NCBI RefSeq assembly: GCF_030406905.1
Contig: NZ_CP129137.1
Location: forward strand, 6,851,501 to 6,915,500
Length of the DNA stretch: 64,000 bases
Source of the DNA: Streptomyces sp. HUAS CB01
GTDB lineage: Bacteria > Actinomycetota > Actinomycetes > Streptomycetales > Streptomycetaceae
Direction: 5' to 3'
In this document: piece after piece, positions 1,846 through 20,848 of the stretch
How positions within the stretch are numbered: the stretch's first letter is position 1
How the letters are laid out: each line of letters begins with the position of its first letter
Notes under the pieces: model-generated
The model's database searches: none
What the model was told of the DNA's origin: nothing
Seen by the model: the letters and a program-made list of their open reading frames with translations, nothing else
Made by a program: the position numbers and the translations under genes

Positions 1846-2022
1846 CTCGGACCGCGGACGGGCCCTGCTGGGTGCCGTCGTCGTCTCCACAGGGCGGCGG
1901 CTCACGCCTTCGCCGTCATCGGGTGCACACCGATGCCGCGCCCACGGGCCCGCCCGCACCCACGCCCGATCGCCCACCATGTGCGGCCCCGCTCACCACC
2001 ACCCGCGACCAGGAAGGCCACC

Positions 2023-3654: not shown

Positions 3655-3820
3655 GCCCACGGTCCGACGGCAGTGCCGAGCTTCACGGCCTCCCTCGTCT
3701 TCGTACCTTCACATTGGCTCGGGCAGCCGACACGCAGCCCACATCCGACCGTCTGCGGACAGCCCTACCACCCTGAGAACCGATCTCCCCGTACTTGGAC
3801 GAAAGCGAGCGGCGCTCCTC

Positions 3821-4897
3821 ATGGCCCATCCCCGGTGGCACCACATCCTCATGGAGTCGCAGCGTCACGCCCTCAAGGCGCTCGACGAATGGAACTGCTC
3901 CAGCGGCGACTACGGCGACTTCCTCACTCACATGCACAAGGCCTGGCACTACCTGCTCCACGCGGAATTCCACAAGGCCGAGATCGACTACCACTATCTG
4001 GACACCAAGACCGGCCGCCACCAGTTGATCGACGGCGAGCCGAAGGCCTGGGACCTCGAGAGGTGCCTGAAGGAGCGCTTTCCCAACAGCGCCGACACGG
4101 TACGCCTCAACGCCGAGCTCTTCGTCGCCCTGCGCAACAAGGTGGAGCATCGCTACGAGCACAACCTGAGGATCGCCACGGGCGGCAGGGCCCAGGCCTA
4201 CGTCATCAACTACGAGCAGGAGATGACGGGCCACTTCGGCGCCGGCTACAGCCTCGCCGACCGGCTCCGCTTCCCCCTCTCCGTCCAGGCCCTGACCGCG
4301 GAGGGGTACGAGGAGATGCGGAAGGCCGCCAGGGGGCTGCCCAGGAAGACCCGTGACCTGGTGGCCAGATACGAGGCGGGTATCGATCCGTCAGTCCTCA
4401 ACGACCCCGGGTACGACTACCGCGTACGGCTGGTGCCCATCACCGGCTCCAAGACGGACGCCGACCTGGCCGTCAACTTCGTCAAGCTCGACGACCTGAG
4501 CGAGGACGAGCGACGCACCATGGTCGAGGCGGGGCGGGATGGTTCCGTCATCACCAGGGACCGCCGTGTCGAGGTGGCGGACCTGAACAGGATGCGCCCG
4601 GCGCAGGTCGCTGCCCGGGTCGAGGAGCAGCTGCCGTTCCGGTTCAGCGTGTACGTGGACCACGTGGTGATGTGGAAGCGGCTGAGAGTCCGTCCGGTCA
4701 AGGGTTCCGGCGACCCGTACGTCACCGACGCGAGGTACTGCACATACAACGAGGCCTTCAACGAGTACGTCTACACCCAGGCATGGATCAGGAAGATCGT
4801 GAGGGAGATCGGGACGGTCGAGAAGTACCGCGCGTTCTTCGGTAGGGAGCCGCGCATGAAGACGGGGATCGACGCGTCGAATCGGGCGGCTGCCTGA
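3821..4897 (+). CDS. DUF3644 domain-containing protein
   Basis: A 358-aa protein. The blocks LIDGEPKAWDLERCL, LNAELFVALRNKVEHRYEH, AYVINYEQEM, RLRFPLSVQALT and YDYRVRLVPITGSKTDADLAVNF follow the DUF3644 pattern, a family of unknown function often seen in accessory and restriction-type neighbourhoods. ATG 3821 is chosen because residues just after it read as ordinary protein while the frame upstream is low-complexity. The ribosome binding site is weak, and ATG 3851 (MESQRHALKAL) is an alternative. No catalytic motif or membrane segment is visible. Confidence 0.7.
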   Translation: MAHPRWHHILMESQRHALKALDEWNCSSGDYGDFLTHMHKAWHYLLHAEFHKAEIDYHYLDTKTGRHQLIDGEPKAWDLERCLKERFPNSADTVRLNAELFVALRNKVEHRYEHNLRIATGGRAQAYVINYEQEMTGHFGAGYSLADRLRFPLSVQALTAEGYEEMRKAARGLPRKTRDLVARYEAGIDPSVLNDPGYDYRVRLVPITGSKTDADLAVNFVKLDDLSEDERRTMVEAGRDGSVITRDRRVEVADLNRMRPAQVAARVEEQLPFRFSVYVDHVVMWKRLRVRPVKGSGDPYVTDARYCTYNEAFNEYVYTQAWIRKIVREIGTVEKYRAFFGREPRMKTGIDASNRAAA

Positions 4898-5231: not shown

Positions 5232-7295
5232 GTGGATCATTCTTATCAGGCGTGGCAGGAAGTGCTGGCCGAAGAGTTCTTCGGAGGGCAGCACGCCGGC
5301 CATCCGACGCTGTTCTACGTCGACGACGACGTGGAGCAGGAGCTCAGGCATGGATACGGCATAGACGAGCCCCTCGCCCGGTGCGTGGGCAGGTTCCTGC
5401 GGCTGGGAACCGCGGAACCGTACGGCGCGCTGGAGGACTACCGCTGGCGCAAGCGGCAGCAGGACAAGGACGGCGTGCCCGCCTTCCTGCCGCTGCTGGC
5501 ATGCTCGGTGATGGCCGCGTCGCGGATGGTGAACGATCGGAACCACCGTGCCACCGCCTACCACACCCGCTTCTCCGAGCTGTTGACCGGCGACGAGAGG
5601 CAACTGGGCAGCCACCACTACGAGCCCATATCCCGAATGTGGCAGGTGCTGGCCTCCTGGCAGCACAGCCAGCGGGGCGCGCGTGGCCTCTGCACCGTTC
5701 CTGCCCCCGCAGACCTGCCCTCCAACCGCAGCATGATCGGGTTCGCCCAGTCCCAGGCGCTCCTCAGCGGCGCTGACCGGTCCTTCATACCGAAGTTCTT
5801 CCGGTCGTTGCGGGAGCACGGTACGACCTGGCCGTTGCCGGGGGAGACGCTGCTGGCCCAGATCGAGATCCGGGGCATGGAGCAGCACTTCTCCAAGGGC
5901 TTCCGCAACGCTCTTCAGGAGGAGGAGTTCCGCCCCCTCCTCGCCAGGCTGATCGGCAACTACGCCGCCTCCTGGGACGGTTCGGACGAACTGGTGCCCA
6001 CCGGTGTCACCCGAGCCGAACTCCTGGTGCGGCTGGACGCGGGGCGTCTCAGCTGGGTGGCGCGTGTGCGGTCCGCGGAACAGAAGGAGCGCATCAAGCT
6101 CAAGAACGGCGTCGTCCTCGAGCAGCTTGGCGACACCGCCTACTACGAAGTGACGGGCCTGCCCTCCCCGAGCGCGAACACCCTCGCGACGGGCATCCGC
6201 CGCGACGGGGACAACCTGGTGCTCAGCCGCCCCTCCTGCTCCGCCCTGGTGCTCGCACGGGACGACGTGCTCGGCGTCTGGGCCGGCACCGACGGCTTCC
6301 GCCCGGGAGAGGCACACGTGGTGCTCGCCGCCCCGACCGCGCAGCGGGACCTGCAGCGGCTGCTGGACAGGGCCGCGACCACGGGCCGGAGCGCCGACAC
6401 CGGCAAGCTGGCCTGGGTGCCTCAGGGCTGGTCCCTGCACAAGCCGGTCACCTTCGACAACGCGGTCACCCTGCGCCGGGCGCTCCAGGAGGTCCAGGGC
6501 GCGGTCGGCCTCCTGCACCCCCCGGCCCAGTTCAAGCTCCGCCTGGAGGGCGGACTGAAGCTCGCGCCGTCGCTCGATCCCCACTTGTACCTGCGAGGAG
6601 GCGAGCCCCAGGTGGTCCTCCCGGACGTCACGGAGGGCACGGGCACCACCCTCCTGGTCGACGGGAAGGAGCGGCCCGAGCTCAGGAAGGCGGTCGCCGC
6701 GGGCCGTCCCGTCCCTCTGGCCGTGCTCCGGCTGGAGCCTGGCCGCCACACGGTGAGCTGTGCAGGCGCCGAGATCGGCTTCGCCACCGCGGAACAGGCC
6801 GTCGTCGAGCCGAAGACGACCAAGGTCTGCGGCTTCACCGTCGTGGACGGCAAGGCCTCGGAATCGCCCTCCCTCCTCACCGAGCAGACCCTGCCGACCG
6901 GCATCACCGGCGCCGACTGCACGGGCACCACGGCCCGGGCAGCGGCAGCCGCCATGGAGCTGTGCCGTCGGGACGCGGAGGAGCTGCTGTTCGCGGCGGC
7001 CGACGGACGGCTGTGGACGTTGGAGGCGCCGGACCAGCCGGACTGGTGGACGGAGCGTCTCCCTGACACTCCCGCCCCGCTCCGCTTCGAGGCCGACTTC
7101 CACGGCATCGGCGGCTGGCTCCTGGAGCGCCGGAGCGGACGCTGGAAGGGCCGCCCGGTGAACCCCGGAACGCCGAAGCCGAGGAGTGCCGGCAACCCGC
7201 GGGCATGGGCCCGTGCCGTCCTCAACGCCCAGCAGGCGTCCGTCGAGTCCTCGTGGGCCGCGTACGTGCAGGCAGCGAAGGAGCTGGACCGATGA
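5232..7295 (+). CDS. Unrecognised 687-aa protein, first gene of helicase-chaperone operon
   Basis: I do not recognise the family. The start is GTG 5232 with GGGGA about 6 nt upstream. The N-terminal third is helical with several conserved-looking aromatic and His positions (FYVDDDVEQEL, NRNHRATAYHTRFSELL). The middle is mixed alpha/beta (ELLVRLDAGRLSWVARVRS) and the rest is beta-rich with short repeats of charged and Gly turns. The C-terminus is Arg/Pro-rich before a final helix. There are no membrane segments, no signal peptide and no P-loop. Its stop codon overlaps the start of the next gene by 4 nt (ATGA), so it is likely translated in step with the helicase. A sensor or substrate-binding role is only a guess. 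Confidence 0.8.
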   Translation: MDHSYQAWQEVLAEEFFGGQHAGHPTLFYVDDDVEQELRHGYGIDEPLARCVGRFLRLGTAEPYGALEDYRWRKRQQDKDGVPAFLPLLACSVMAASRMVNDRNHRATAYHTRFSELLTGDERQLGSHHYEPISRMWQVLASWQHSQRGARGLCTVPAPADLPSNRSMIGFAQSQALLSGADRSFIPKFFRSLREHGTTWPLPGETLLAQIEIRGMEQHFSKGFRNALQEEEFRPLLARLIGNYAASWDGSDELVPTGVTRAELLVRLDAGRLSWVARVRSAEQKERIKLKNGVVLEQLGDTAYYEVTGLPSPSANTLATGIRRDGDNLVLSRPSCSALVLARDDVLGVWAGTDGFRPGEAHVVLAAPTAQRDLQRLLDRAATTGRSADTGKLAWVPQGWSLHKPVTFDNAVTLRRALQEVQGAVGLLHPPAQFKLRLEGGLKLAPSLDPHLYLRGGEPQVVLPDVTEGTGTTLLVDGKERPELRKAVAAGRPVPLAVLRLEPGRHTVSCAGAEIGFATAEQAVVEPKTTKVCGFTVVDGKASESPSLLTEQTLPTGITGADCTGTTARAAAAAMELCRRDAEELLFAAADGRLWTLEAPDQPDWWTERLPDTPAPLRFEADFHGIGGWLLERRSGRWKGRPVNPGTPKPRSAGNPRAWARAVLNAQQASVESSWAAYVQAAKELDR

Positions 7296-8284
7296 CGGGA
7301 CCGATGAGCAGCACCGAGTTCGGTGGGATCCTCCTGCGCTGGCTGAGCGAGAGCCGCAGCGGCACGGCGTCCGCACTGCGCGACGGGGTCCGCAGCCAGG
7401 CCCAGGCGTGGGGCCTGGAGCTGAAGGAGTACGCCGACTGGGACTGGATGCGCAAGGCCGCCGCCCTCGGCTTCATCGACGTGGACCTGCGCGCCGACCG
7501 CTGGTCGGTGGCCCCGCCGGTGCTGACCAGGCTGCCCCACGCCGACGGCCTCGCTGTGCTGACCGGCGCGCGCACCGCCCAGACCAGCAGGCGCGTCGAC
7601 GAGGCAGCACAGGAGTGGATGGAGCTGGTCACCGTCCCCCACCGACCGGAGGCCGGTGAGGCGCGGCTGCCCGACACCCTCCTGTTCCAGTACGAGGACT
7701 TGCGGACCCTGCAGGCAGCCGCGGAGTTCCTCGGGGCAAGCTACGTGCCCTGCGCCGCCCTGCAGTTGACGGCGCTGCTTCCGCAGGCGGCGCCGGGCCC
7801 CGAGTCCGCACCGCCCGGTGGGAGCACCGCCAACACGCTGGAGAAGTACGAGTTGCGCCTCCAGCGGTTCGTCCCCGCGGAGAGGGACGACGAGGACGGC
7901 CTTTACCGGTGGCGCGGAGCCGACTACGCGCGCCTGACCCGCGTCCGCCGCAACGGTGTCTTCCACGCGGTGGAACGCGAGACGGGTATCTATCTGGAAC
8001 TCGCCCGCCACCGCACCGGCGCGATGCGCTGGCGGCCGGAATCCGGCAAGGGCCGTGCCGGCATCGGTCGACTCTTCGTCGACCGGTATGCGCCACTGCC
8101 CGCCGTGCACGAGCGCGCGGCCGTCCTGTGCAGCGGCTTCCCGCCCTCGGTGGGCAAGCAGGCACAGACCCGTGCGTACGACAACGTGCCGAGGGCGGTC
8201 GCCGAGGCGATCGCGGCCTCGCTACGGCAGAACCTGGAGATCATGCCTCGACAGGTAGGCGCCACCGGCGGGAGGACCAAGTGA
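7292..8284 (+). CDS. Unrecognised 330-aa protein with winged-helix-like N-terminus
   Basis: ATG 7292 overlaps the previous TGA and has AAGGAG 8 nt upstream. The N-terminal ~110 residues (GILLRWLSES, DWDWMRKAAALGFIDVD, RWSVAPPVLTRLPHADGLAVLTGAR) look like a winged helix followed by a beta hairpin. The centre has a Pro/Gly linker, and the C-terminus includes beta strands (YARLTRVRRNGVFHAV) and a Lys/Arg-containing tail. No catalytic motif is visible. It sits directly before the DUF1998 helicase with a GTGA overlap, so it could be an adaptor or DNA-binding partner of the helicase; that is inference from position. Confidence 0.75.
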   Translation: MTGPMSSTEFGGILLRWLSESRSGTASALRDGVRSQAQAWGLELKEYADWDWMRKAAALGFIDVDLRADRWSVAPPVLTRLPHADGLAVLTGARTAQTSRRVDEAAQEWMELVTVPHRPEAGEARLPDTLLFQYEDLRTLQAAAEFLGASYVPCAALQLTALLPQAAPGPESAPPGGSTANTLEKYELRLQRFVPAERDDEDGLYRWRGADYARLTRVRRNGVFHAVERETGIYLELARHRTGAMRWRPESGKGRAGIGRLFVDRYAPLPAVHERAAVLCSGFPPSVGKQAQTRAYDNVPRAVAEAIAASLRQNLEIMPRQVGATGGRTK

Positions 8285-11200
8285 GCGTCGAACAGCAGAC
8301 AGCGACGGTGACGAACACCGATGTCCAGGACGTCATGGGCACGTTCGACGACCTGCGCAGCGCGCTCTTCCGCTACTACGACACCCCGTTCGGCGTCGAT
8401 GACCGTTCCGTCATGGAGGAACGGCGCAACCTCCTGGACCGGGACAACGGAGCCTGGCGTGACCCGCTGATCGAACTGCGGCCGCAGTACGCCTCCCGGG
8501 GCGTCGGCATCGCGGACTCCTTCGCCGAAGCAGGGGCGCACCCGGAGGCGGCCGAGTTCGCCCGGTTCACCCTCCCCGACGGTGTGACCAGCCTCTACCA
8601 GCATCAGCACGACGCCCTGGTCGCCGCCTGTTCGGGCCAGGACTTCGTGGTCACCGCAGGCACCGGATCCGGCAAGACGGAGTCCTTCCTGCTGCCGGTC
8701 CTCGCCGACCTGGTCGCCGAGTCCGCCCACTGGCAGGGCACCCGTGCGACGCAGCGGGAGTGGTGGCAGGGGGACGGCAACCACGTGCCCAGCCGACAGG
8801 GCGAGCACGGACATCCCGCAGCCATGCGTGTGCTGGTTCTCTACCCCACCAACGCCCTCGCCGACGACCAGCTGGTCCGGCTCCGGAAGTCGCTGGACAG
8901 CCGAGAGGCCCACGAGTGGCTGGACCAGAAGCGCAACGGACACCGCTTCTACTTCGGCCGGTACACCGGAGCCACTCCTGTCTCCGGCAGCCGCGATTCC
9001 GAGCCAGCGAACCTCCGTCTCCGTCAGTACCTGCGGGAGGTCCAGGAGCGGCAGCGCAAGGCCGACGAAAGGCTCGACGAGGGGCTGCGGCCCTTCATCC
9101 CGCGCCTCGGCGGAGCGGAGATGCACGCCCGCTGGGACATGCAGGCCGCACCGCCGGACATCATGGTCACCAACTACTCGATGCTGAACATCATGCTGCT
9201 CCGCAAGCGGGAGGAGCACATCTTCCGCGCCACGAGGAAGTGGCTGGACGAGACCCCGGACGCCCGCGTCACCCTGATCCTGGACGAGCTCCACATGTAC
9301 CGCGGCACTGCTGGCACCGAGGTGGCCTACCTTCTGCGCAACCTCCGCCACCGTCTCGGCCTCGACAAGAGCCCCGAAAAGCTGCGTGTGCTCGCCGCCT
9401 CCGCCTCCCTGGAGGCCGGGCGGGACGACGAGTTCCTCGACGGATTCTTCGCCCTGCCCGGATCCCGGCGCGTGATCATCCCTGGAAGGTCGAAAGAGAT
9501 CCACGGCGAGGGCGACCTGGCCGCGCACACCGAACGCCTCGCGCATGCCGCGAAGGCCCCCCTCACCCAGGACCAAGCCCTCGCCCTGGCCCGGGAGACC
9601 GGCCTCGGCCCAGCGGTCCAGCGCGCACTCACTCCAGGCGGCAAGCCTCGTGCTCTGCCCGCCCCCGAACTCGCGAAGAACCTCTTCCCGGACATCCCCG
9701 AGGAACCGCGCCAGGACGCTCTCCACGGGGTGCTGCGCATACTCGGCTCCGCACAGGACCCCGAACTTCCCCAGCTCCGCGCGCACTTCTTCTTCCGGAA
9801 CATCGAGGGCATCTGGGCCTGCACCGACCCGAACTGCCCGCAGATTCCCGTGGAGCACGGCCCGGAACGGCGGGTCGGCCGGCTTTTCGCCGAACCCACC
9901 TCCCGATGCACCTGCGGTGCCCGCGTACTGGAACTTCTCTCCTGCCAGGCCTGCGGCGACCTCATGCTCGGCGGGTACGCGAGCCCCAAGGACACCCAGC
10001 GGCGCAAGTTCACCGGTGCCCTCCACACCGACTTCCCGGATTTGGACCTGCTCCCCGACGAGGCCAGTGGGGCACCCACCGCGGCGAACTACGTCGTGTA
10101 CTGGCCGCGTACGAAGGGCCTCGGCCTCGACGACCCCGGCTGGCACGCGGGCCTGTCCGACGGCGGGCCGCAGGTCGAGTTCGAGTTCCGCCGCAGCGCC
10201 TACCAGCCCGCCACCGGCCGCCTGGAGAACCGGGACGTCCAGCACACCGGATGGTCGTTCCACATCTCCGTACCCCCGGACAAGGAAGGCAAGAAGCCGG
10301 CCCACGACCCGGGCCGCCTGCAGGCATTCCCCACCCGTTGCCCCGCCTGCGGCGACGACTGGGAGATCAAGTACGACCGGGACGGCCGTTTCATCCCGCT
10401 GGAGTCTCCCGACCGGCTGCGCAACGCGCCGGTCCGGCGAATGCGCACCGGCTTCTACAAGATCAACCAGGTGCTGGTGACCGAAGCCCTCGGCCACCTC
10501 CCGGACGGCAAGCGCAAGGCGATCGCCTTCTCCGACAGCCGTGACGACGCCTCCGAGCTCGCCAGCGGCCTCGCTCTGCGCCACTACCAGGACCTTCTCC
10601 GCCTGCTCAGCGCCCAGGCCGTCGAGAACCAGGGCGATCCGTTCGGAGACCTTCGGCTGGTGAAGGCCCACTACGCCGGGGCGCCGGTCGATCGTGAAGC
10701 CGCCCGTGGCGCCATGGAACGGCTGCGGGACCGCGATCCGGCGGACTGGGGGCGCCTCAAGGCGATCCTCGCCGACGACCTCGACGCGGAACCGGAACTC
10801 CTGCCCGACCTGGAGCGGAAGTTCTCCGCACTGCCCTCCCTGGACGACCTGGCCTCCGACCTCGAGGGCATGCTGCTCAAGTACGGCACCAACCCCGCCG
10901 GTCCCGCGGCCTCGCTCCAGCAGACCTCGGCCGAACAGCCCTGGACCGCGCTCTACAACTGGGAGCGGGACCGGGAAGCGGTGGTGGAGACCCCGGCACA
11001 GGAGGAACTCCTCAACCGCCTCCGCTCCCGTCTCCGCCTGGAGGCCATCGGAAGCCTCTTCTCCGGCGGCGGCCGTGACTTCGAATCGCTCGGACTCGGT
11101 TGGCTCTGCCTGCGTGACGATCGCTCGCCTGTAGAGATCGGCCGGGACAGCGATCAGGCCGTGGCGCGTGCCAGTCTGCGGATACTCGGCCTGATGCGGC

Positions 11201-13746
11201 GCTTCACCCGGATACGTGCCTCTCTGCAGAGGCCGCCTGCGCCTCTGAAGCGTTTCTGGAAGCAGGTCGCCGAACGCCAGGGTTCCGATGTGCAGACGGT
11301 CGAGGACCGGGTGCTCGGCGTCTGGAAGGACGCCGTGGTCGACTACGTCATCAAGCCGGAGAAGGTGGCGCTCCGCTCCGGCGAGAACAAGACCTGGACA
11401 TGCCCCTCCTGCCACCGGCCGCACCTTCACCCGGGCGCGGGAGTGTGCACCAAGTGCCTGACCCCGCTGCCTGTCCTGCCCCAGCAGTACAGCGGAGTCC
11501 TCGAGGACGACTACTACGCCTGGAAGGCCGCGCACCGCACCGGTGACTTCCCCCTGCGCACGGCAGAGCTGACCGGTCAGACGGACCGGCTGGAGGCCCA
11601 GCGCCGGCAGAGCCTCTTCCAGGACGTCTTCCTCGGCGACAAGGACGTTCCGCGGGCGGACGGCCTGGAACTGCTCTCCGTGACCACGACCATGGAGGCC
11701 GGTGTCGACATCGGCCCGCTCAACACCGTGATCATGGCCAACATGCCGCCCACCCGCTTCAACTACCAGCAGAGGGTGGGGCGTGCGGGCCGACGCAACA
11801 GCCCGGTCGCCCTGGCCCTCACCGTCTGCCGCGGCCGAAGTCACGACGAGCATTACTTCGCCCGCCCGGAAGCCATCACCAACGATCCGACTCCACCGCC
11901 CTACCTGGTACTCGACATGGTCTCCGTCTTCCGGCGGGTCCTGCTGGGAGAGGTCCTGCGCCAGGCCTTCGAGCCCCTGCAGCCGGCGGAGCGCCGGAAG
12001 GGGCCGGACATGACGACCAACGTGCACGGACAGTTCGGTCTCGCCGCCGACTGGCCGATGCATCGCGGTGCCGTCCGCCGCTGGATCGCCGAGCGCCCGG
12101 ACCGCATCAGAGCCGCTGCCGCCGCCCTCCAGGCCGGATCACCGGCGAGCGTCGCCGCCGTGAATCCGGTGGCCGCCATCGACGAACTCCTCGACCAGGT
12201 CGACGAGGTGGCAGCCCGGACGGTCGGCCACTCCGACCTCAGTCAGCGTCTGGCCGAGGCGGGCCTCCTGCCCATGTTCGGCTTCCCGACCCGCTCCCGT
12301 CTCCTCTACCGGAGCATCCCGCAGAAGACCTTCCCCTGGCCGCCGGCCGACTCCGTCAACCGGGACCTGGCCGTCGCCCTCAGCAAGTTCGCACCGGGCA
12401 GCGAAACCCCGCAGGACGGCCGTCTGCTCCGCTCCAGGGGAGTGGTCTCCCTCGTCCCGAGCGGGCGCGGAGTACAGGCCGCCGAGGACCCGTTCGGGCC
12501 GGAACAACTGGTAGCCATGTGCCGGATCTGCTCCCACGTGGACCCGCAGGCCGTTGTCGACCCGGATACCGGGAGCGCCGGTACCTGCCCCGCCTGCGGA
12601 GCGGAGAGCAAGTACTACAAGGCCGTCCCCTTCCGTGAGCCCGCAGGTTTTCGGGCCGCCCGTGAAGCACGGGACTACGACGGCTACCGGGAGCTCGGCT
12701 CCAACGCCACCAGCGCACGGACCGCCACCGACCTGGAGAACACCGCCCCGCGCGTCCACCGCGCCGCCGACGACTGGATGGTCGTCCACACCGGAAGCGG
12801 CGACCGCTACATCGTCAACACCAATGCCGGAAAGCTCTTCCGGTTCGCAAAGAACGCCGGTCCATGGGGCGGATACGTCGCGCTGGACCACCCCAAGGCG
12901 GAAGCCGACCTGGAGACCGCCCTCGGCGCCACCCAGCACACCGACATGCTCTTCATCGGGGCCAAGGGCGCCCTCGACACGAGCCGGGGCCTCCGCTTCG
13001 ACATCTCGAAGTCCCAGCAGATCGACGGCTTCCCCGAGGCCTACCACGGCCGGCGCGCCGCCTGGTACTCGCTGGCGGCCCTGCTGCGCCGCGCCGCCGC
13101 CCCGCACCTGGACGTGCAGCCGGAGGAACTCCTCAGCGGCATCCACGGCTCGGACGCCCCGGTGGCCGCTCCCGTCATGGCCTACCTGGCGGACAGCCTC
13201 GACAACGGCGCAGGCTTCAGCACCTACCTCGGTTCGGAGGAACACATCGAGGAGTTCCTCCAGGCGGTGGACCGGTACGTGCACGACCTGGAGGCCGGAC
13301 ATCATGCGCAGAACTGCCGCAGCTCCTGCTACACCTGCCTGCGCGACTACTCCAACATGCGCCTCCACCCGCTGTACGACTGGCGGCTCGCCCGCGACCT
13401 GACCGACGCCCTGCGGGGTCGGAAACTGCAGATCGACCCGGACGAGCACGCCGTCTTGCTGAAGGGCTGGGCGAACGAGGAGCCCAACGTCAGCCTCAAG
13501 GAGACCGCCTCCGGCCCCGTGGCGCTCTTCACGTCGGACTTCACCGGTGAGCCCGTCGCGATCGCCGTCAAGCATCCGCTGGAGTCCGCAGACGAGAAGT
13601 GCGGGAATGAACGGCTCCAGGCCCTGCGCAACGAGGTCCGTGCCGGAGGCCTCGCCACCAGGATCGCCTTCGCCGACTCCTACAGCCTGGACCGGACTCC
13701 TGCCGCGGTGATCGAGCAGGTGCACATCTTCGCGGAGGAGCTCTGA
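8281..13746 (+). CDS. Large DEAD/DEAH helicase with zinc ribbons and DUF1998 (DruE/DrmA-like)
   Basis: GTG 8281 has GGGAGG 5 nt upstream and overlaps the previous stop by 4 nt, giving 1821 aa; the frame extending upstream only overlays the preceding gene. Superfamily 2 motifs are clear: Walker A GTGSGKTES (~residue 127), DELH (~334), SAS (~375), and motifs V/VI TTMEAGVDIG and QRVGRAGRR (~1163). Cysteine pairs typical of zinc ribbons occur at about residues 513, 543, 687, 1040 and 1414. The C-terminal CRSSCYTCLRDYSN (~1679) is the DUF1998/MZB signature. Size and layout resemble DruE of Druantia and DrmA/DrmB of DISARM, but none of their known partners is present here. The role is probably ATP-driven DNA translocation or unwinding in the cytoplasm. 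Confidence 0.93.
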   Translation: MSVEQQTATVTNTDVQDVMGTFDDLRSALFRYYDTPFGVDDRSVMEERRNLLDRDNGAWRDPLIELRPQYASRGVGIADSFAEAGAHPEAAEFARFTLPDGVTSLYQHQHDALVAACSGQDFVVTAGTGSGKTESFLLPVLADLVAESAHWQGTRATQREWWQGDGNHVPSRQGEHGHPAAMRVLVLYPTNALADDQLVRLRKSLDSREAHEWLDQKRNGHRFYFGRYTGATPVSGSRDSEPANLRLRQYLREVQERQRKADERLDEGLRPFIPRLGGAEMHARWDMQAAPPDIMVTNYSMLNIMLLRKREEHIFRATRKWLDETPDARVTLILDELHMYRGTAGTEVAYLLRNLRHRLGLDKSPEKLRVLAASASLEAGRDDEFLDGFFALPGSRRVIIPGRSKEIHGEGDLAAHTERLAHAAKAPLTQDQALALARETGLGPAVQRALTPGGKPRALPAPELAKNLFPDIPEEPRQDALHGVLRILGSAQDPELPQLRAHFFFRNIEGIWACTDPNCPQIPVEHGPERRVGRLFAEPTSRCTCGARVLELLSCQACGDLMLGGYASPKDTQRRKFTGALHTDFPDLDLLPDEASGAPTAANYVVYWPRTKGLGLDDPGWHAGLSDGGPQVEFEFRRSAYQPATGRLENRDVQHTGWSFHISVPPDKEGKKPAHDPGRLQAFPTRCPACGDDWEIKYDRDGRFIPLESPDRLRNAPVRRMRTGFYKINQVLVTEALGHLPDGKRKAIAFSDSRDDASELASGLALRHYQDLLRLLSAQAVENQGDPFGDLRLVKAHYAGAPVDREAARGAMERLRDRDPADWGRLKAILADDLDAEPELLPDLERKFSALPSLDDLASDLEGMLLKYGTNPAGPAASLQQTSAEQPWTALYNWERDREAVVETPAQEELLNRLRSRLRLEAIGSLFSGGGRDFESLGLGWLCLRDDRSPVEIGRDSDQAVARASLRILGLMRRFTRIRASLQRPPAPLKRFWKQVAERQGSDVQTVEDRVLGVWKDAVVDYVIKPEKVALRSGENKTWTCPSCHRPHLHPGAGVCTKCLTPLPVLPQQYSGVLEDDYYAWKAAHRTGDFPLRTAELTGQTDRLEAQRRQSLFQDVFLGDKDVPRADGLELLSVTTTMEAGVDIGPLNTVIMANMPPTRFNYQQRVGRAGRRNSPVALALTVCRGRSHDEHYFARPEAITNDPTPPPYLVLDMVSVFRRVLLGEVLRQAFEPLQPAERRKGPDMTTNVHGQFGLAADWPMHRGAVRRWIAERPDRIRAAAAALQAGSPASVAAVNPVAAIDELLDQVDEVAARTVGHSDLSQRLAEAGLLPMFGFPTRSRLLYRSIPQKTFPWPPADSVNRDLAVALSKFAPGSETPQDGRLLRSRGVVSLVPSGRGVQAAEDPFGPEQLVAMCRICSHVDPQAVVDPDTGSAGTCPACGAESKYYKAVPFREPAGFRAAREARDYDGYRELGSNATSARTATDLENTAPRVHRAADDWMVVHTGSGDRYIVNTNAGKLFRFAKNAGPWGGYVALDHPKAEADLETALGATQHTDMLFIGAKGALDTSRGLRFDISKSQQIDGFPEAYHGRRAAWYSLAALLRRAAAPHLDVQPEELLSGIHGSDAPVAAPVMAYLADSLDNGAGFSTYLGSEEHIEEFLQAVDRYVHDLEAGHHAQNCRSSCYTCLRDYSNMRLHPLYDWRLARDLTDALRGRKLQIDPDEHAVLLKGWANEEPNVSLKETASGPVALFTSDFTGEPVAIAVKHPLESADEKCGNERLQALRNEVRAGGLATRIAFADSYSLDRTPAAVIEQVHIFAEEL

Positions 13747-15482
13747 TGACGACAGGAAACCCGCTGGGAGCGGGCCACGACGAGCAGGCCCGACGGGAGG
13801 TGCTGCGGCAGCGCGAGATCGCCCGCCGCCTCGCCCTCCGTCAGGCCCGCGCCCAGGGCCGGATCGTCGGAGAAGCACCGGAGGTTGCGGAAGGAGCCGG
13901 CAGCCCCGCTGCGGTCGTTCCGCCGCAGCAGCAGCCGGAACCTGCCATGCCCCAGCCGGTCCCCGACGGATTCGCCGACCGGGAGGCCTGGGAGCGCGCC
14001 CGCTCCTTCGCGGAACTCATGCTGCCCGACGCGTTGAAGGCGGAGGCCGGAACCTCCTCAGCACAGAAGTTGGCCAGGGCAGCGGCCGATGCGGCGTCCC
14101 GGCAGGACGACCCGGTCGAGGGCGTCTCCCTGCTCGTCACGGCACAGAACCACGGGCTGGACGTCTTCCACGGCCGGCTCAACGACCGCGCCCGCGCCCT
14201 GCTGGAGGACAAGCCACTGCCGCTCCTGGGGGAGCCGGGCAGCATGTGGCAGATCTACCAGGACGATCGTCGCCTGATGGTGACCAATCTCCCGGCCCCT
14301 CGGCAGAGGGCGCTCCTGGCGAAACTTCCGCGGGCGCTCCTCGACGACTACATCGACGAGGAGTGGATCGGCGCGGTCCCCGAGCGCGACGGCACCTCCC
14401 GTGCTGCGTACTTCCGCGCCCGCCTGGACCCGACGTCTCTCACCGATGAGGAGATGGACCTGTTGGCCTGGCCCCTGGAACGGGAGCGACGCGAGGCAGG
14501 CCCGGGAACGGCACCCGGCCCTGACTGGCCGCAGGACTGGCGCCTGCTGGTGAGGCTGCAGGCCAACGACGCCAAGGCCGTTGCCGAGGAGTGGACCGAC
14601 CTCCTGCCGCCGACGCAGAAGCTCCTCGACGCTCTCCGCGAAGTGCGGCGGACCGGAGAGGTCCCGGACGACCTCGTCGCCGACGAGCTGCTGTGGGTTC
14701 TCCTGGAGCGGATCCACCCCCGCGTGCGCAGCGTGAGCAACACGCAGTTCAACGGCTGGATCGGCGTCAGGACCCTGATCAGGGCTGTGCGGCAGATGCA
14801 CCGTGCCCTCCTCCTTGGAGACGACGAGGCGGCGGAACAGCGGAGGAAGGCGGCGCTCACGATGGCCGCAAGGCTCCGGCACCACTCGCAGCCGGTGCGC
14901 TGGGAGGCCCAGAACATTCAGGCCTACCTGCGCGCCGGCCATGAGATGAAGGAGAGCCTCAGACTCCTGGAGCAGGACGCGGAAGGCCGTCCCCCCGTGC
15001 GGGACCAGCTCGGCGGAGGCGCCGTGGCCACGTTGCGGAAGAATCGGAGCTTTCTGGAAGGCCGGCCCCTCGGAGAACGCGACCAGCCGCGCAACCCTTA
15101 TCTGACGCTCGGCGTGCCCGACGGAGCGGACGACTGGAAGAAGGCCTGGCGCGCCCTGAGGAAGGAACTCGACGACAGCGGCCGTGTCCGGATCAACAGC
15201 GCCAAGGACATGATCGAGAAGGCCGAGCGGGAGCAGCAGGAAGTACCCCGGTTCGCCGTCCCGCTCGCCCCGCATCGCTGGAAGGACTCCACCGGCACCA
15301 GCCACCGGCTGGAACTCCCGCCCGAGCCTCTGCAGAGGCTCACCGTGCCGCCCACGGACAGCGACCGCGAGTGGTCTCGTACCGAGGCGGCCCGAGAAAT
15401 AATCACCACGGCGACAGAACGCCTTTCCCCGGCTGCTGAAGACCCCGCGGCCCTTGAAGACCCAGAGAGCAGCACATCGTGA
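13746..15482 (+). CDS. 578-aa protein with degenerate J-domain near the C-terminus
   Basis: ATG 13746 overlaps the helicase stop by 1 nt (TGATG) and has GGAGGAG 6 nt upstream. The first ~430 residues are helical, Arg/Glu/Ala-rich and unrecognised. Residues ~450-497 read NPYLTLGVPDGADDWKKAWR, then a second basic helix and INSAKDMIEKAE. This follows helix I-II and helix III of a DnaJ J-domain, but the HPD that triggers Hsp70 ATP hydrolysis is missing: RKELDDSG stands in the loop. An Hsp70 gene lies two genes downstream. I infer an Hsp70-pairing protein with altered J-domain chemistry; no database comparison could be made. Confidence 0.75.
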   Translation: MTTGNPLGAGHDEQARREVLRQREIARRLALRQARAQGRIVGEAPEVAEGAGSPAAVVPPQQQPEPAMPQPVPDGFADREAWERARSFAELMLPDALKAEAGTSSAQKLARAAADAASRQDDPVEGVSLLVTAQNHGLDVFHGRLNDRARALLEDKPLPLLGEPGSMWQIYQDDRRLMVTNLPAPRQRALLAKLPRALLDDYIDEEWIGAVPERDGTSRAAYFRARLDPTSLTDEEMDLLAWPLERERREAGPGTAPGPDWPQDWRLLVRLQANDAKAVAEEWTDLLPPTQKLLDALREVRRTGEVPDDLVADELLWVLLERIHPRVRSVSNTQFNGWIGVRTLIRAVRQMHRALLLGDDEAAEQRRKAALTMAARLRHHSQPVRWEAQNIQAYLRAGHEMKESLRLLEQDAEGRPPVRDQLGGGAVATLRKNRSFLEGRPLGERDQPRNPYLTLGVPDGADDWKKAWRALRKELDDSGRVRINSAKDMIEKAEREQQEVPRFAVPLAPHRWKDSTGTSHRLELPPEPLQRLTVPPTDSDREWSRTEAAREIITTATERLSPAAEDPAALEDPESSTS

Positions 15483-16285
15483 GGAACAGAGCCGGTAAAG
15501 GCGACAATGGTGCTGGCCCCCGTGACGGATCCCGGCCGCGCCCGGGACGTGGGCCGAACAGCGGAAGCGTGCGGAGTCGTGGGGAGGGCAGGGCGGCCGA
15601 GGCTGCTCCCTGGCGGTTCACCGAGAGCCACCTGCCCGAACTCAGCCGGGGGACGCTGGACGCCGCCGCGATCCTGAAGTCGGTCAACGAGACGCTCCTA
15701 CCCGTGGTGGAAAGGGAGTTGGAGGCGGCGACGGAGAAACTGGGCGCAGCTCTGGCCGACAAGAAGACCGAAGCCGATCTGGTCTCCGCCTTCCGGGCCG
15801 AGCTGATGCGTCGAGTGCTTCCCCAGTTCACCGAAGCAGTCCGCAAGGGTGTGCTGGAGAGTATCCGCACACGCCAGATGCACCTGGCACAGCTGGCAGT
15901 CCTGCACCGGCAGGCGCTGCAGGCGAAGAAGCTGACAGCAGTGTTGACCCGCCTCGACCACGAGGCGGCGCAGGCCGGCCTGCAGATCGTCGGCGACGCC
16001 GGCGATCAGTCGCTGTTCAACGTCGTGGAGGACCAGCCCGGTGTGGTGAGGAGAGGCCCGGTCACCTTTGAACTTGTCGCGCCGGCCTACGTCGACAAGG
16101 AGTCGGGGAAGCTTGTCGAACGCGGCTGGCTGCGGGCCGTCGCCGGGCAGGAAGCTCCGCTGGGGATTGTCGATTCCGGTTCTGCACCAGCCGTGGAGGA
16201 TCCGGCTCCGGCGCTGACCTACAGGCAGACGCTGCGTGCTGCGGTGCGCGGGCGACTTGGCGTGACGCAAAGGGGAACGCGATGA
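15479..16285 (+). CDS. GrpE-like protein (268 aa), candidate Hsp70 nucleotide-exchange factor
   Basis: GTG 15479 overlaps the previous stop by 4 nt. The first ~45 residues are a basic Gly/Arg/Pro tail. Residues ~55-165 form long heptad-rich helices (ILKSVNETLLPVVEREL, LVSAFRAELMRRVLPQF). A compact beta-rich end follows (SLFNVVEDQPGVVRRGPV, APAYVDKESGKLVERGWLRA). A long helix pair followed by a small beta domain with a Gly-Tyr/Val-x-Arg pattern is the architecture of GrpE. The gene sits between a J-like gene and an Hsp70 gene. Sequence similarity is weak, so the assignment rests on layout and context. Confidence 0.6.
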   Translation: MRNRAGKGDNGAGPRDGSRPRPGRGPNSGSVRSRGEGRAAEAAPWRFTESHLPELSRGTLDAAAILKSVNETLLPVVERELEAATEKLGAALADKKTEADLVSAFRAELMRRVLPQFTEAVRKGVLESIRTRQMHLAQLAVLHRQALQAKKLTAVLTRLDHEAAQAGLQIVGDAGDQSLFNVVEDQPGVVRRGPVTFELVAPAYVDKESGKLVERGWLRAVAGQEAPLGIVDSGSAPAVEDPAPALTYRQTLRAAVRGRLGVTQRGTR

Positions 16286-18042
16286 CCTTCGGTATCGACT
16301 TCGGCACCAGCAACTCCGTGGTGGCCCACTGGAACGGGCACACCACCGAAGTGCTGCCGGTCGACGGCGACAACGTGCCTGCCCAGTGGCGGATGTCGGA
16401 GTTCGAGCAGCTCTTTCCCTCCGTGCTCTCCGTCCGCGACCTCCAGCGCACCCTCTGCTTCGGCTGGGAGGCGAAGACCGGCACGAGCGAGCCGCTCGAC
16501 GCCGTGAAGCGCATGCTCGGCACCCGCTCCGGTGCCGAGAAGGACGGCGGCATCGACGGTCTCGAGGTCGCGGCCCAGCTGGAGGAGCACCACGCATGGG
16601 TCGGCTCGGAGAAGTTCCACAGCACGGTCGCGGCCGCTTCCCTCTTCAGCCGGATGAAGGAAGGCGTCTCGGCCCAGCTGCTCGACCTCTCCGACGCGGT
16701 CGTCACCGTCCCTGCCAACGCCACAGGCGGCGCCCGCTACCGCACCCGTGCCGCGGCAGCGCTCGGCGGAGTGAAGGTCCGGGCCCTGCTCAACGAGCCC
16801 ACCGCGGCTGCGATCTCGTACGCCCACGACGTCCCGGTCCCCGGCCGTTTCCTCGTCTTCGACTGGGGCGGCGGCACTATCGATGTCACCGTCCTCGAAT
16901 ACGACGACGGCCTCTTCGAGGAGCAGACCTCCCGCGGTATCACCGCCCTCGGAGGCCTGGAGTTCGACAACGCGCTGGCCCAGCTGATTCAGCAGAAGAT
17001 CGGCCTGACCGCGGACCAGCTCACCAAGGCCGAACGACGCCGGTGGCGCCGTTCGGTCGAGCTGACGAAGATCGCCCTGTCCTCCGTGCCGATGGACGGC
17101 GCGCTCTTCTTCGACCTCCCGGTCGGCCTCGCCCCCTCGATCTCGAGGCGAGAGGTCCGGATCACCGCGATCGAGTACACCGAAGCCATCACCCCGCTCA
17201 TCACTCGCGCCCTGGAGACGGTCCAGCAAGCTCTGGAAGACCTGGCTATCACCGCCGACGACGTCGACTCCGTTCTGATGATCGGCGGCACCTCGCAGAT
17301 CCCCCAGGTGCGTCACGCCCTGGGCGAGCTCCTCGGTCACGACCGCATCGTCGACAGCGGCCTGTGCCGGCCCATGACTGCCGTCGCCCGAGGCGCGGCC
17401 ATCTATGCGGCCTCCCTCGACGGCGAACTCGGCGACGACAGCGACTTCTCCCTGGTCACCAGCTACGACCTGGGCACGGCGGTGAGCGCGGGTGAACAGA
17501 AGGGCTTCCGCGCCATCATCCGACGCAATGCCACGCTCCCCGCGGAGGGTTCGGCCACCTTCTACCCGGACACACCGCGTGCTTCCTTCGTGCGCGTCCC
17601 GGTGATCGAGGGCGAGGTCGGCTACCCGGCCGACAGCGACCGTGCCTTCCCCTTGGCCAACATCGAGGTGGATCTTCCGACTCGTGAACAGGACACCCGC
17701 CGGAACAAGATCGAGATCAAGTTCCGCTACAACGAGAGTGGCATCCTGCGCTTCACCGCCACCCACGCGGCCACCGGCAAGCAGCTCGTCGAGCGCGAGA
17801 TCGACTCGTTCGGCCCCGACGGCACCCCACTGCAGCACGGCCTCGACGACGAATTGACCCGCCTCCTGGCCCACACCGTCCGCCCGTTCGCCGACGGCTC
17901 TTCCCACGTGCGACATCTCTCGTCAGCTGAATCAGCCAACGTCCGTCCCGCGCCGATCGACTTGACTGTGCGCGTGGTGGAGGCCGACCCGGCCGTAACG
18001 GTCAACGGCGAGCCACAGGGCGTGGTGACGGGGGGACTTTGA
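16282..18042 (+). CDS. Hsp70-family chaperone with reduced lid
   Basis: ATG 16282 overlaps the previous stop by 4 nt and has AAAGGGGAA just upstream; 586 aa. All Hsp70 nucleotide-binding motifs are present: phosphate-1 GIDFGTSNSVVA, connect-1 LNEPTAAAISYA, phosphate-2 VFDWGGGTIDVTVLE and adenosine VLMIGGTSQIPQ. A beta substrate-binding domain follows (residues ~385-510, with SYDLGTAVSAG and FRYNESGILRFTATH). Only ~60 residues remain for the alpha lid, and there is no DnaK-type acidic C-terminal tail. As last clear gene of the overlapping set it is probably a specialised Hsp70 acting on the helicase or its partner proteins, not the housekeeping DnaK. Confidence 0.92.
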   Translation: MTFGIDFGTSNSVVAHWNGHTTEVLPVDGDNVPAQWRMSEFEQLFPSVLSVRDLQRTLCFGWEAKTGTSEPLDAVKRMLGTRSGAEKDGGIDGLEVAAQLEEHHAWVGSEKFHSTVAAASLFSRMKEGVSAQLLDLSDAVVTVPANATGGARYRTRAAAALGGVKVRALLNEPTAAAISYAHDVPVPGRFLVFDWGGGTIDVTVLEYDDGLFEEQTSRGITALGGLEFDNALAQLIQQKIGLTADQLTKAERRRWRRSVELTKIALSSVPMDGALFFDLPVGLAPSISRREVRITAIEYTEAITPLITRALETVQQALEDLAITADDVDSVLMIGGTSQIPQVRHALGELLGHDRIVDSGLCRPMTAVARGAAIYAASLDGELGDDSDFSLVTSYDLGTAVSAGEQKGFRAIIRRNATLPAEGSATFYPDTPRASFVRVPVIEGEVGYPADSDRAFPLANIEVDLPTREQDTRRNKIEIKFRYNESGILRFTATHAATGKQLVEREIDSFGPDGTPLQHGLDDELTRLLAHTVRPFADGSSHVRHLSSAESANVRPAPIDLTVRVVEADPAVTVNGEPQGVVTGGL

Positions 18043-18797: not shown

Positions 18798-19112
18798 ATG
18801 CCGACCGGGAGCGCGGACGACGGCCACATCACCGTCTCCTTCGCCACCCTTCGCGAGCTCGCCGCCGAACTGGAGGACATCCTCAGGAAGCTCAACGGCA
18901 GTCTGGACGACCTCCACGACCGGGTCGTGCCGGTCGTGCTGTCCTGGGAGGGTGAGGCCCGCGAGGTCTTCGTCGACAAGCTCGACGAGTGGGACCGTTC
19001 GGCCCAGGACCTCCAGGCGGCCCAGAAGTGGCTGCACGAGTGCGCGACCACGAGCCACATCAACTACGCTGCAGCGCACCAGGCTGTGCTGCGCGGTTGG
19101 GGGGCCGGCTGA
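18798..19112 (+). CDS. Second WXG100-like protein
   Basis: A 104-aa protein, the standard WXG100 length. The turn is SWEGEAREVF at about residues 50-59, between helices LAAELEDILRKLNGSLDDL and WDRSAQDLQAAQKWLHECA. ATG 18798 follows a GGGGGA. The stop overlaps the start of the toxin gene by 1 nt (TGATG), so the two are likely translated together and may form a complex for type VII secretion. No signal peptide or membrane segment is present. Confidence 0.82.
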   Translation: MPTGSADDGHITVSFATLRELAAELEDILRKLNGSLDDLHDRVVPVVLSWEGEAREVFVDKLDEWDRSAQDLQAAQKWLHECATTSHINYAAAHQAVLRGWGAG

Positions 19113-20848
19113 TGGGGACACCAGCACCGGGTCAGAACGGCACCATCGACGTCAAGCCAACCGACCTCCACCGTGTGTCCGGCGGTGTGGCGAGCCAGCA
19201 GACGGTGATGGACAAAGGCGCCAAGTCCCTGCTCGACGATCTGCACAAGTACCCGGACGCCGGCGGTTACGGCACCTCACCTCAGGCCTTCGCGACGTCG
19301 TACGTCAAGGTCGGCAACCGCTTCCTCGAAGTATGGGCCAAGAGCGTCGTCAGCATCGGGGGAGCGGCAGTCGGCTTCACTTCGACGGCCAATGCCTACG
19401 CGAAGGCGGAGGCGGCCAACGATCCCACAGGTAAGGCCAAACCGGTCGTCCAGCCGTTGCCGAAGGTCATCGATAAGCCGCCCGCCTACGGCTCCGTGCC
19501 GAATCTGAAGTGGGGCGACGACGACGGCGGCGACGACTTCATCCGCAGGATCCTCGAGTGGGTCCCCGAGCCGGTCCGGGAGGTGCTGAGGCCGGTGGTG
19601 AAGCATGCCTTCCGGATGGGCAAGGTCGCCGAGGTCTATCCGTTCCCGCAGCAGCACTACCTGAACTCGCTGTCCAAGGCGTGGATGGCGACGACCACCT
19701 CGCTCTCCCTTGCGGAGAGCGGCCTGACCGGGAACGTCGGCAGCATCACGCAGCAGGCCAACAGTGAGTGGTACGACGCGATGCGCCAGTTCTGCAGTTC
19801 GCTGTGGGGCACCACAGCGTGGGGCAAGAGCCGCGAGAACTACGAGTGGAAGCACGACAGCTCCTCCTCGCAGACTGCCACGCACCCCGTGATGACCGTG
19901 CTGTTCGACACGGCTCAGAAGGTCAGCGATCTCCTCTACGAATTCGCCGAGGCGGCCGTCTATCTCAATCGCGAGGTATGGGACGTCTACATCGAGGCCG
20001 TGCGCGACGCGATTCCCAAGGTCGAGGTCAACCTCAAGGACGGCGTCGGCATGGACGACGTCAAGGGCTTCCTGAAAGGCGTGGCCAAGGGTGTCGCCAA
20101 GGGCGCGAGTCAGCTGGGTCAGGGCATCGTCCTGAACATGGACACCGCCAAGCTGAACTCGATCGTCACCACGTACAACCGACGCGTCGACGCGCTCGTC
20201 CCGCAACTCGACGCGCTCATGGGACCGTTGGACGAGGCTCACCGGAGCGCTCCGAAGTTCGAAGCGCAGGAGGCGCGTGCGCAAGGTTTCGGCATGCGGG
20301 CCCTGGAGGAGTTCAAGGACTCGCAGGTCTGGATGAAGGTCGACTCGACCGGCAAGTACGACCTCAACCTCGCCGCCAACGAGTACATGGAGAACGGCCA
20401 CACCCTGGACAAGCACGTCGGCAAGACGGACGAGCAACTCGCGCAGCGCCTGCGCGACCAGCAGACGAACGGCCCGACCCAGGCCTGGCCGCACGGCAAG
20501 CCGTATCCGAGCAGCTCTTCGGCCTTCCCGAACTACCGGCGGGCGGAGGCGCTGACCGAGTACAACCTCAACCAGAACAAGGCCGCCATCGAGGCGTGGA
20601 TCAAGGGCCCGCCGCCGCCGGGGGAGGGAGACGTCAAAGCCTTCCATGCGACCGCGCCGAACGGCGAGACCAGCGGCCGCAGTGTGAGCAAACAACCGGC
20701 TGACCCGAACGACCCGCTCTCCGGGTACAAGCAGGGCGGCATGAACGCCAAGGCGTACGACGTCACCGGCATCGACACGCGGATCCGGTACGACAGCGGT
20801 CGTACCCCGCCGTTCACCGTCATGACGTCGATGCCCTCCAAGTCCTAG
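19112..20848 (+). CDS. Polymorphic toxin with C-terminal CdiA-type RNase A-like domain
   Basis: ATG 19112 overlaps the stop of the WXG100 gene; 578 aa. The N-terminal ~110 residues (LHRVSGGVASQQTV, SYVKVGNRFLEVWAK) resemble the WXG/LXG-like leader of type VII effectors. The middle is helical with a Lys/Gly repeat (FLKGVAKGVAKGASQLG). The C-terminus from ~residue 425 has GHTLDKHVGKTDEQL, SSSSAFPNYRRAEAL and PFTVMTSMP, the pattern of the bacterial CdiA-CT RNase A domain, with His in HTLDKH as likely catalytic residue. Expected activity is RNA cleavage in a neighbouring cell. The immunity gene is probably one of the next genes. Confidence 0.82.
   Translation: MGTPAPGQNGTIDVKPTDLHRVSGGVASQQTVMDKGAKSLLDDLHKYPDAGGYGTSPQAFATSYVKVGNRFLEVWAKSVVSIGGAAVGFTSTANAYAKAEAANDPTGKAKPVVQPLPKVIDKPPAYGSVPNLKWGDDDGGDDFIRRILEWVPEPVREVLRPVVKHAFRMGKVAEVYPFPQQHYLNSLSKAWMATTTSLSLAESGLTGNVGSITQQANSEWYDAMRQFCSSLWGTTAWGKSRENYEWKHDSSSSQTATHPVMTVLFDTAQKVSDLLYEFAEAAVYLNREVWDVYIEAVRDAIPKVEVNLKDGVGMDDVKGFLKGVAKGVAKGASQLGQGIVLNMDTAKLNSIVTTYNRRVDALVPQLDALMGPLDEAHRSAPKFEAQEARAQGFGMRALEEFKDSQVWMKVDSTGKYDLNLAANEYMENGHTLDKHVGKTDEQLAQRLRDQQTNGPTQAWPHGKPYPSSSSAFPNYRRAEALTEYNLNQNKAAIEAWIKGPPPPGEGDVKAFHATAPNGETSGRSVSKQPADPNDPLSGYKQGGMNAKAYDVTGIDTRIRYDSGRTPPFTVMTSMPSKS

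Follow-up and report, generated by a model that had tools for sequence, protein, structure and literature searches.

What is an Hsp70 doing in the operon of a large defence helicase? The question is raised by the window analyzed here, a stretch of 64,000 nucleotides (nt) from Streptomyces sp. HUAS CB01 (assembly GCF_030406905.1, contig NZ_CP129137.1, positions 6,851,501 to 6,915,500), in which six genes on the forward strand fill positions 5232–18042. A first-pass annotation had described six open reading frames (ORFs) overlapping by 1–4 nt at each junction, and their coordinates bear this out. The first three genes encode the known core of Druantia type IV, and the new part is the trio that follows them, here called J, G and H, or J-G-H. 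Our answer, to which we assign a probability of about one half, is that a Streptomyces branch of Druantia type IV has captured J-G-H as a dedicated Hsp70 switch that would gate the Druantia complex. If true, this would extend Druantia type IV.

The annotation had taken the first two genes for unknown proteins and the usual partners of the helicase for missing; the latter statement is wrong. Gene 1 (5232–7295, 687 amino acids (aa), of unknown fold) matches the PADLOC model DruF4 (PDLC00052, E 2.6e-102, residues 3–684) and gene 2 (7292–8284, 330 aa, likewise of unknown fold) the model DruL4 (PDLC00057, E 2.4e-94, residues 11–317). Gene 3 (8281–13746) encodes an 1821-aa superfamily 2 helicase of the YprA family with matches to PF00270 and PF00271, and corresponds to DruE4 (PDLC00051, 2191.8 bits, E 0, residues 16–1816). 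It carries the motifs AGTGSGKTES, LDELH and QRVGRAGR and is rich in cysteine pairs. The protein is clearly a helicase of the DruE family, although Pfam gave no DUF1998 match to it at E ≤ 1; DruF gave no Pfam or NCBIfam match at the same threshold. Genes 1–3 thus represent the Druantia type IV set in the order F-L-E, which was defined by DruE and DruF with DruL replacing DruM and DruG and was reported with 168 instances in 11 phyla (Payne et al., 2021, PMC8565338). Models of DruM and DruG were absent from the listed PADLOC matches of the six genes at E ≤ 1 (25 of 34 matches in the case of the helicase), a search that did not include the N6-methylase gene upstream. An undescribed helicase system without known partners is consequently rejected, and novelty is left to J-G-H, which no PADLOC model matches at E ≤ 1. 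In the open-licence full texts that made up the literature searched, no mechanism was found for Druantia type IV.

The firmest member of the trio is H (16282–18042, 586 aa), whose earlier assignment as Hsp70 was confirmed by PF00012 (205 bits, residues 3–501 aligned to model positions 2–491 of 599). The match comprises the ATPase domain and the beta substrate-binding domain and does not extend to the helical lid; the nearest sequence relatives in the PDB are DnaK and mitochondrial Hsp70 proteins. Residues D6, T9, K65, E172, D194, T199 and D201 (window numbering), which we take to be the DnaK ATPase positions, are intact and identical in all 32 aligned Hsp70s of this module. G (15479–16285, 268 aa) is a candidate nucleotide-exchange factor with a GrpE-like C-terminal beta domain at residues 140–225. 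Its GrpE-likeness is supported by profile–profile comparison alone: against actinobacterial GrpE, hhalign returned a probability of 83 (P 9e-6, score 46.0) over this domain, compared with scores of 9.3–16.0 for eight column-shuffled controls and 12.4 for an unrelated DnaJ profile, and no meaningful Pfam, NCBIfam, PADLOC or PDB match was obtained. Among relatives, the length of G ranges from 268 to 397 aa, while that of the flanking genes is nearly constant. J (13746–15482, 578 aa) is a candidate J-like co-chaperone with a segment resembling J-domain helices I and II at residues 451–475. Its profile reached a probability of 29.5 and a score of 30.4 against DnaJ, over helices I–II only (eight shuffled controls, 9.2–11.7), and it had no Pfam, NCBIfam or PADLOC match at E ≤ 1 and no PDB match at E ≤ 10. 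The reference profiles were built from those fetched loci that passed a motif filter, 18 of 27 for GrpE and 17 of 33 for DnaJ. Since three canonical dnaK-grpE-dnaJ clusters are present elsewhere in the same genome, J-G-H is not the housekeeping set.

The six genes are tightly packed, with overlaps of 4, 4, 1, 4 and 4 nt at the five junctions from gene 1 to gene 6. A start codon allowing an overlap of 1–4 nt is kept at every junction in 17 of 17 loci with all six genes (the window, L028, L034–L045, L048, L052 and L053); as the script favoured starts near a 4-nt overlap, this demonstrates conserved start options and not the start used. Moreover, the ratio of nonsynonymous to synonymous substitution rates (dN/dS) is below 1 for all six genes (overall 0.08–0.50) in six pairwise comparisons each, sampling 6 of the 16 other loci. 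Values were 0.08–0.17 for Hsp70, 0.14–0.21 for DruE, 0.21–0.34 for DruF, 0.27–0.45 for DruL, 0.23–0.34 for J and 0.31–0.50 for G, the comparison of G with L034 being saturated.

Is the trio tied to this helicase beyond the window, as the annotation had proposed? When the genomes of named species were searched with an alignment of DruE, 28 DruE loci were obtained, and the six-gene order recurs in 15 of them, which supports the tie. In all 15 loci whose DruE is 63–93% identical, J-G-H lies directly behind DruE; 14 of these proteins are 90–93% identical, and one, from Streptomyces sp. 13-12-16, is 63% identical (J 33%, G 42%). The expected recurrence in unrelated genomes was thus found only in part, as the order recurs exclusively within Streptomyces and not in unrelated genera. 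Among 396 Actinomycetota genomes drawn, DruE4 occurred in seven and J in two, both times beside DruE. The complete operon was present in 8 of 392 Streptomyces genomes and is accessory, so that a conserved core-chromosome position, named beforehand as a finding that would speak against an undescribed, probably anti-phage, system, does not apply. An earlier draw of 150 Streptomyces genomes had contained six with DruE at E ≤ 1e-100, two of these with the six-gene operon. DruE relatives were also seen in 18 plasmid records, four of which were opened (Deinococcus, a cyanobacterium, Alisedimentitalea and Meiothermus); J was not found in plasmids. Carriage by phages or viruses was rejected, as 50,697 phage records contained no DruE at E ≤ 1e-30 and viral contigs no relative of H, the latter by a query with one protein, which detects only close relatives.

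Co-inheritance of DruE and the trio is also apparent from phylogeny. In a DruE tree (39 rows, quick method), all 20 DruE proteins accompanied by J-G-H fall into one clade with a support of 100, and in an Hsp70 tree (49 rows, ATPase and beta domains only) the 20 Druantia-linked copies form one clade as well (100/99). Both clades split 17+3 in the same way. The Hsp70 tree further joins the Druantia clade (97/93) with six copies bearing a nuclease-like domain, discussed below, and separates every Hsp70 of the module from the genome's three DnaK proteins. It was computed without L018, L136, L138 and L152, which are same-contig copies of L045, L043, L042 and L053; the DruE tree was computed without these four and without L019–L022, L017, L032 and L033, of which L020 and L021 were not shown to be copies, and with L057 as a 1035-residue piece. 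Across 16 loci (without L053), the pairwise distances of DruE correlate with those of J (0.83; 0 of 1000 permutations as high), DruF (0.73; 1 of 1000) and DruL (0.62; 0 of 1000).

A profile search with J gave a second perspective on the trio. It detected 34 J loci in 32 of the 392 Streptomyces genomes (37 rows, as three loci gave two rows each), with gene presence settled by tblastn, including J in L129 and L140 and G in some loci; DruL of L018, a locus outside this search, was also found by tblastn. All 34 loci keep the order J, G, H with the genes in the same orientation, and DruF, DruL and DruE accompany them in 8 of 34. The remaining 26 loci without Druantia, several of them beside other defence-type genes, could be taken to mean that J-G-H forms an independent defence or toxin-like module, which shares a transcript with Druantia only by chance and functions separately. 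We consider such a pair of independent systems improbable, as the overlaps are conserved in 17 of 17 loci, the Druantia-linked copies form one clade on both trees, divergence is correlated and the Hsp70s of the Druantia-linked branch have lost their nuclease-like domain; together, these observations argue for a functional union.

Because the order is always kept and the partners vary, J-G-H is best described as a unit that moves between partners, with good support for the module as well as for the exchange. Upstream or downstream partners were assigned from family libraries in L012, L019, L023, L024, L025, L027, L131, L133, L137, L138 and L148, and elsewhere, where named, by similarity to these. 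A second J-G-H copy in the same genome (L012; G000:C1:2255000-2274000, around C1:2.26 Mb, positions 8008–16023) has a 1188-aa UvrD-like helicase upstream on the same strand and a nuclease-like domain on its Hsp70, and an IS21-type transposase pair adjoins it. A related helicase accompanies J-G-H in L148 and L149. In L027 and L133, a DrmMI/type IIG-like methylase is encoded on the same strand by an ORF overlapping J by 4 nt. In L133 (L133:1313-18093), one operon joins a DpdE-like SNF2 helicase and the DrmMI-like methylase to J-G-H and to two genes for LeoA/LeoBC-like GTPases; here, the DpdE-like gene ahead of the methylase covers the whole PADLOC model PDLC02853 (1938 bits), and the two GTPase genes after H match the dynamin-like LeoBC/LeoA models. 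In L023, L132, L137 and L139, J-G-H has both a DndB-family gene and an N6-methylase nearby; in others (e.g., L141 and L150), it has the N6-methylase alone, and some loci have no recognised partner. L134 combines J-G-H with two large downstream ORFs. The J match is in two pieces in L150 (9013–10787), L151 and L154, and the L150 copy, spread over two ORFs, may be decaying.

The Hsp70 itself differs with the partner. In 26 of 26 non-Druantia copies, it carries a C-terminal extension of about 110–130 residues (673–704 aa in total) that resembles a PIN/NYN nuclease domain, and the first aspartate (VDG or IDG) is kept in all 26. The family PF11977 (Zc3h12a-like NYN ribonuclease) matched five of six tested proteins, four of them above the 23-bit cut-off (L023, L025, L026 and L027), with 19.8 bits for L012 and none for L024. 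Judged by these family matches, the C-terminus of the sister Hsp70s is a candidate PIN/NYN-like nuclease. In the Druantia-linked Hsp70s (20 of 20 non-redundant copies, 560–600 aa), the domain is absent: the proteins stop soon after its first strand, with VNG in place of VDG in all 20. The tail reads VNGxPQ in 19 copies and VNGVAQ in one, and H of the window is cut off after TVNGEPQ. The six copies of the branch closest to the Druantia-linked Hsp70s (L023, L024, L132, L139, L147 and L150) all lack an acidic stretch, TEGKGDAL, and the nuclease of this branch may already have decayed. The simplest history would be a single loss of the nuclease together with coupling to Druantia. In a separate observation, six of the 13 named loci that lack the trio (L047, L051 and L055–L058) have a homologue of a PIN_8-family gene close to DruE, which in L051 is encoded on the opposite strand; the test with PF18476 was made on the gene at L019:13258-14682, L019 being the same contig as L058. 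This homologue is possibly an alternative nuclease of the chaperone-free DruE loci.

A more conservative explanation would be that J-G-H merely folds or assembles a very large DruE and its partners, with neither regulation nor sensing involved. The 1821 residues and cysteine pairs of DruE, the position of J-G-H directly behind it in 17 of 17 loci with overlaps of 1–4 nt, and the size of other large upstream partners (1188–1677 aa) would all suit an assembly chaperone. However, similarly sized DruE proteins (46–50% identity) manage without J-G-H in 13 of 13 named loci, several loci (e.g., L025, L026, L130, L135 and L142) have the trio but no large neighbour in the same direction, and a role limited to folding leaves no use for a nuclease-like domain on the Hsp70. 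This explanation appears unlikely to us.

We therefore return to J-G-H as a captured switch. The parent module would have consisted of J, G and an Hsp70 ending in a PIN/NYN nuclease-like domain; upon coupling to Druantia, the nuclease would have been lost once and the Druantia complex would have become the output. DruE, together with DruF and DruL, could engage phage or replication DNA, and J, as an adaptor with a degenerate J region, might hand Hsp70 its client, which could be the Druantia complex, a phage protein or a misfolded protein. ATP hydrolysis by Hsp70 would lock the client, G would serve as reset factor, and infection would shift Hsp70 occupancy in such a way that active DruE is released or assembled. 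We infer the gating itself as well as the physical interaction, the identity of the client, the direction of control and the antiphage activity. Work on related systems offers some background to such a model. For Druantia III, DruE was described to load as a helicase on 3'-tailed DNA and to form higher-order assemblies, by which its nuclease is proposed to be activated (PMC13192584), and in Druantia I and II the C-terminal nuclease of DruE is predicted to be inactive (PMC12458937). As type IV shares DruF with type II (PMC8565338), a separate output or control part would be expected for this relative. Moreover, chaperone-dependent phage sensing has been reported for bNACHT25, which needs host DnaJ (PMC12169576).

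As the same chaperone set recurs elsewhere, carrying a nuclease-like part and next to different defence genes, it may be a switch that bacterial immunity can reuse. A broader and more tentative version, which we regard as possible rather than probable, is that J-G-H is a plug-in, chaperone-gated immune switch with the fused nuclease as its ancestral output, rewired in separate lineages to Druantia, to the UvrD-type helicase and to the DpdE/DrmMI/dynamin-like operon. Hsp70 occupancy, by titration through phage proteins or a captured DNA complex, would arm the output, and the VNGxPQ tail could be a docking peptide that replaces the nuclease domain. If true, a dedicated mobile Hsp70 triad would be a control unit of nucleic-acid-targeting immunity, either a fused nuclease or large defence helicases would serve as its interchangeable output, and chaperone state, as a general indicator of infection load, would directly control a DNA-targeting system. 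Core and switch genes are separable in nature: some cores have the switch and others lack it, and some switches bear a nuclease-like domain instead.

Several observations weigh against a chaperone switch of Druantia. J-G-H is present in 0 of the 13 named loci whose DruE is 46–50% identical (several of these contigs end a few kb from DruE), and five of the seven DruE-bearing genomes of the Actinomycetota draw are without the trio. Matches to J, G and H at E ≤ 1e-3 were found in 0 of 26 chaperone-free DruE loci, comprising the 13 named loci, the four opened plasmid loci and nine further ones (L019–L022 and L029–L033, of which L019 and L022 are on the same contigs as L058 and L046). As far as these loci indicate, Druantia type IV does not need the trio, and the idea that J-G-H is a general part of it was rejected. 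The named carriers among the matches listed all belong to the Streptomycetaceae, a family that includes Kitasatospora and Actinacidiphila. Correlated divergence with DruE is modest for H (0.47; 13 of 1000 permutations as high) and G (0.45; 23 of 1000) across the same 16 loci, and the trees are midpoint-rooted with long-branch warnings (the DnaK outgroup and the Nocardiopsis DruE pair), which makes the branching order beyond the two clades unsure. As loss of the PIN domain is a single event, the perfect partition between nuclease and partner counts only once. Furthermore, the genome's own G and J were not found with PF01025 and PF00226, respectively, at E ≤ 10. The earlier term "J-like" holds as a weak profile match and does not extend to a standard J domain: an unrelated GrpE profile scored 22.5 against J at a probability of 0.8, and HPD, the residues that stimulate the Hsp70 ATPase in known J proteins, is absent from J in 17 of 17 loci. 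Because of this weak resemblance and the missing HPD, J may not be a working J protein.

Apart from the operon, the genomic setting gave further hints. The DndB-like, RNase H-fusion and DUF3644 genes named by the annotation were recovered upstream, all on the forward strand: the 3' part of a DndB-family gene (1–746; PF14072, 31.8 bits with a cut-off of 29.1; the ORF starts left of the window at G000:C1:6850870), an RNase H-domain fusion gene (1933–3654; PF00075, 31 bits) and a DUF3644 gene (3554–4897; PF12358, 108 bits; PADLOC candidate PDC-S19, E 3.5e-81), which is not in the conserved unit. Among the 15 named loci bearing J-G-H, DUF3644 has a near-full-length homologue in two and a short match (80–86 residues) in three, and the RNase H fusion a match of at least 434 residues in six and of 62 residues in one, some of the loci having little upstream sequence. 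DndB occurs in 38 of 392 Streptomyces genomes, in seven of them within about 13 kb of a J locus as judged from coordinates. Not being constant upstream, these three genes were rejected as parts of the system. Upstream, 14 of the 17 operon loci share more than 500 aligned bases with another locus and three share none; downstream, 8 of 17 share and 9 of 17 share none. Given this patchy sharing, the three genes look like common island neighbours rather than markers of one fixed site. To the left of the window (L013, L128) lie genes for type I restriction, HsdR and HsdM, and for an N6-methylase with the DndB-family gene, and the gene families thus place the operon at the edge of a predicted defence island. 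The gene just downstream (18989–20848) encodes a C-terminal bacterial RNase A-type contact-inhibition toxin domain (PF18431) and is probably unrelated to the operon.

This setting also bears on a role outside of defence, in which the six genes would form a stress or DNA-repair operon whose DruE-like helicase and Hsp70 disassemble stalled DNA–protein complexes. Hsp70 systems are known to disassemble complexes. Likewise, the YprA-family helicases include repair enzymes (PMC12458937). The patchy presence in 8 of 392 genomes, the assignment to PADLOC defence families and the type I restriction and DndB neighbours, however, render a repair operon highly improbable.

How does the operon then compare with known systems? 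Druantia type IV as described by Payne et al. (2021, PMC8565338), in a main text in which the word "chaperone" is absent, has the same DruE, DruF and DruL; here, J, G and H are added directly downstream. Druantia type III features a homologous DruE core but consists of two genes, DruH-DruE (PMC13192584, PMC13316683), and the main texts of both papers mention neither Hsp70 nor chaperones. The "J-like" region of its DruH was rejected as a link to DnaJ, since the term refers to phage baseplate protein J (PMC13192584). DISARM was rejected as well, with weak helicase-core matches to DrmA (best 37 bits) and no DrmB or DrmC among the matches listed for the six genes, and so was Dpd, for which the listed PADLOC matches were helicase-core matches to DpdJ and DpdF alone. 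The main text of a survey of YprA helicases (PMC12458937) contains no Hsp70, chaperone, GrpE, DnaJ or DnaK. In the open-licence full texts, with subscription papers and supplements outside the scope, no report was found that joins Druantia with an Hsp70/GrpE/J trio; Druantia and Hsp70 were co-mentioned solely in versions of the CoCoNuT paper, where the words in the text at hand are used for other genes (PMC11090510).

Closer parallels to the trio itself exist in other contexts. In the GAP1-N2 GTPase conflict systems, predicted mainly in actinobacteria and firmicutes, HSP70, GrpE and FNIII-DnaJ are encoded together (Kaur et al., 2020, PMC7159879). A set of Hsp70, GrpE-like and candidate J-like proteins is shared, whereas the partner here is the Druantia helicase complex and, unlike in the described GAP1-N2 systems, sister J-G-H modules fuse Hsp70 to a nuclease-like domain; Pfam matches of the six genes included no GTPase or FNIII family, although no search was aimed at GAP1-N2 itself. 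CoCoNuT type III likewise places an Hsp70-like protein, CnuD, inside a predicted defence operon, where it is predicted to act together with McrBC and to show hardly any ATP hydrolysis (Bell et al., 2024, PMC11090510). In the present operon, the ATPase residues are intact, and neither McrB nor McrC was matched among the listed PADLOC, Pfam and NCBIfam rows for the six genes. With the canonical DnaK-GrpE-DnaJ set, J-G-H has in common the Hsp70 fold, a candidate GrpE-like beta domain and the adjacency of the genes, but it differs by its own Hsp70 clade, distant from the three DnaK proteins of the genome, the lack of HPD and of a helical lid match, and a J and a G that are below Pfam detection. 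The mobile J-G-H(-nuclease) module may deserve a higher standing in terms of novelty if its function is shown.

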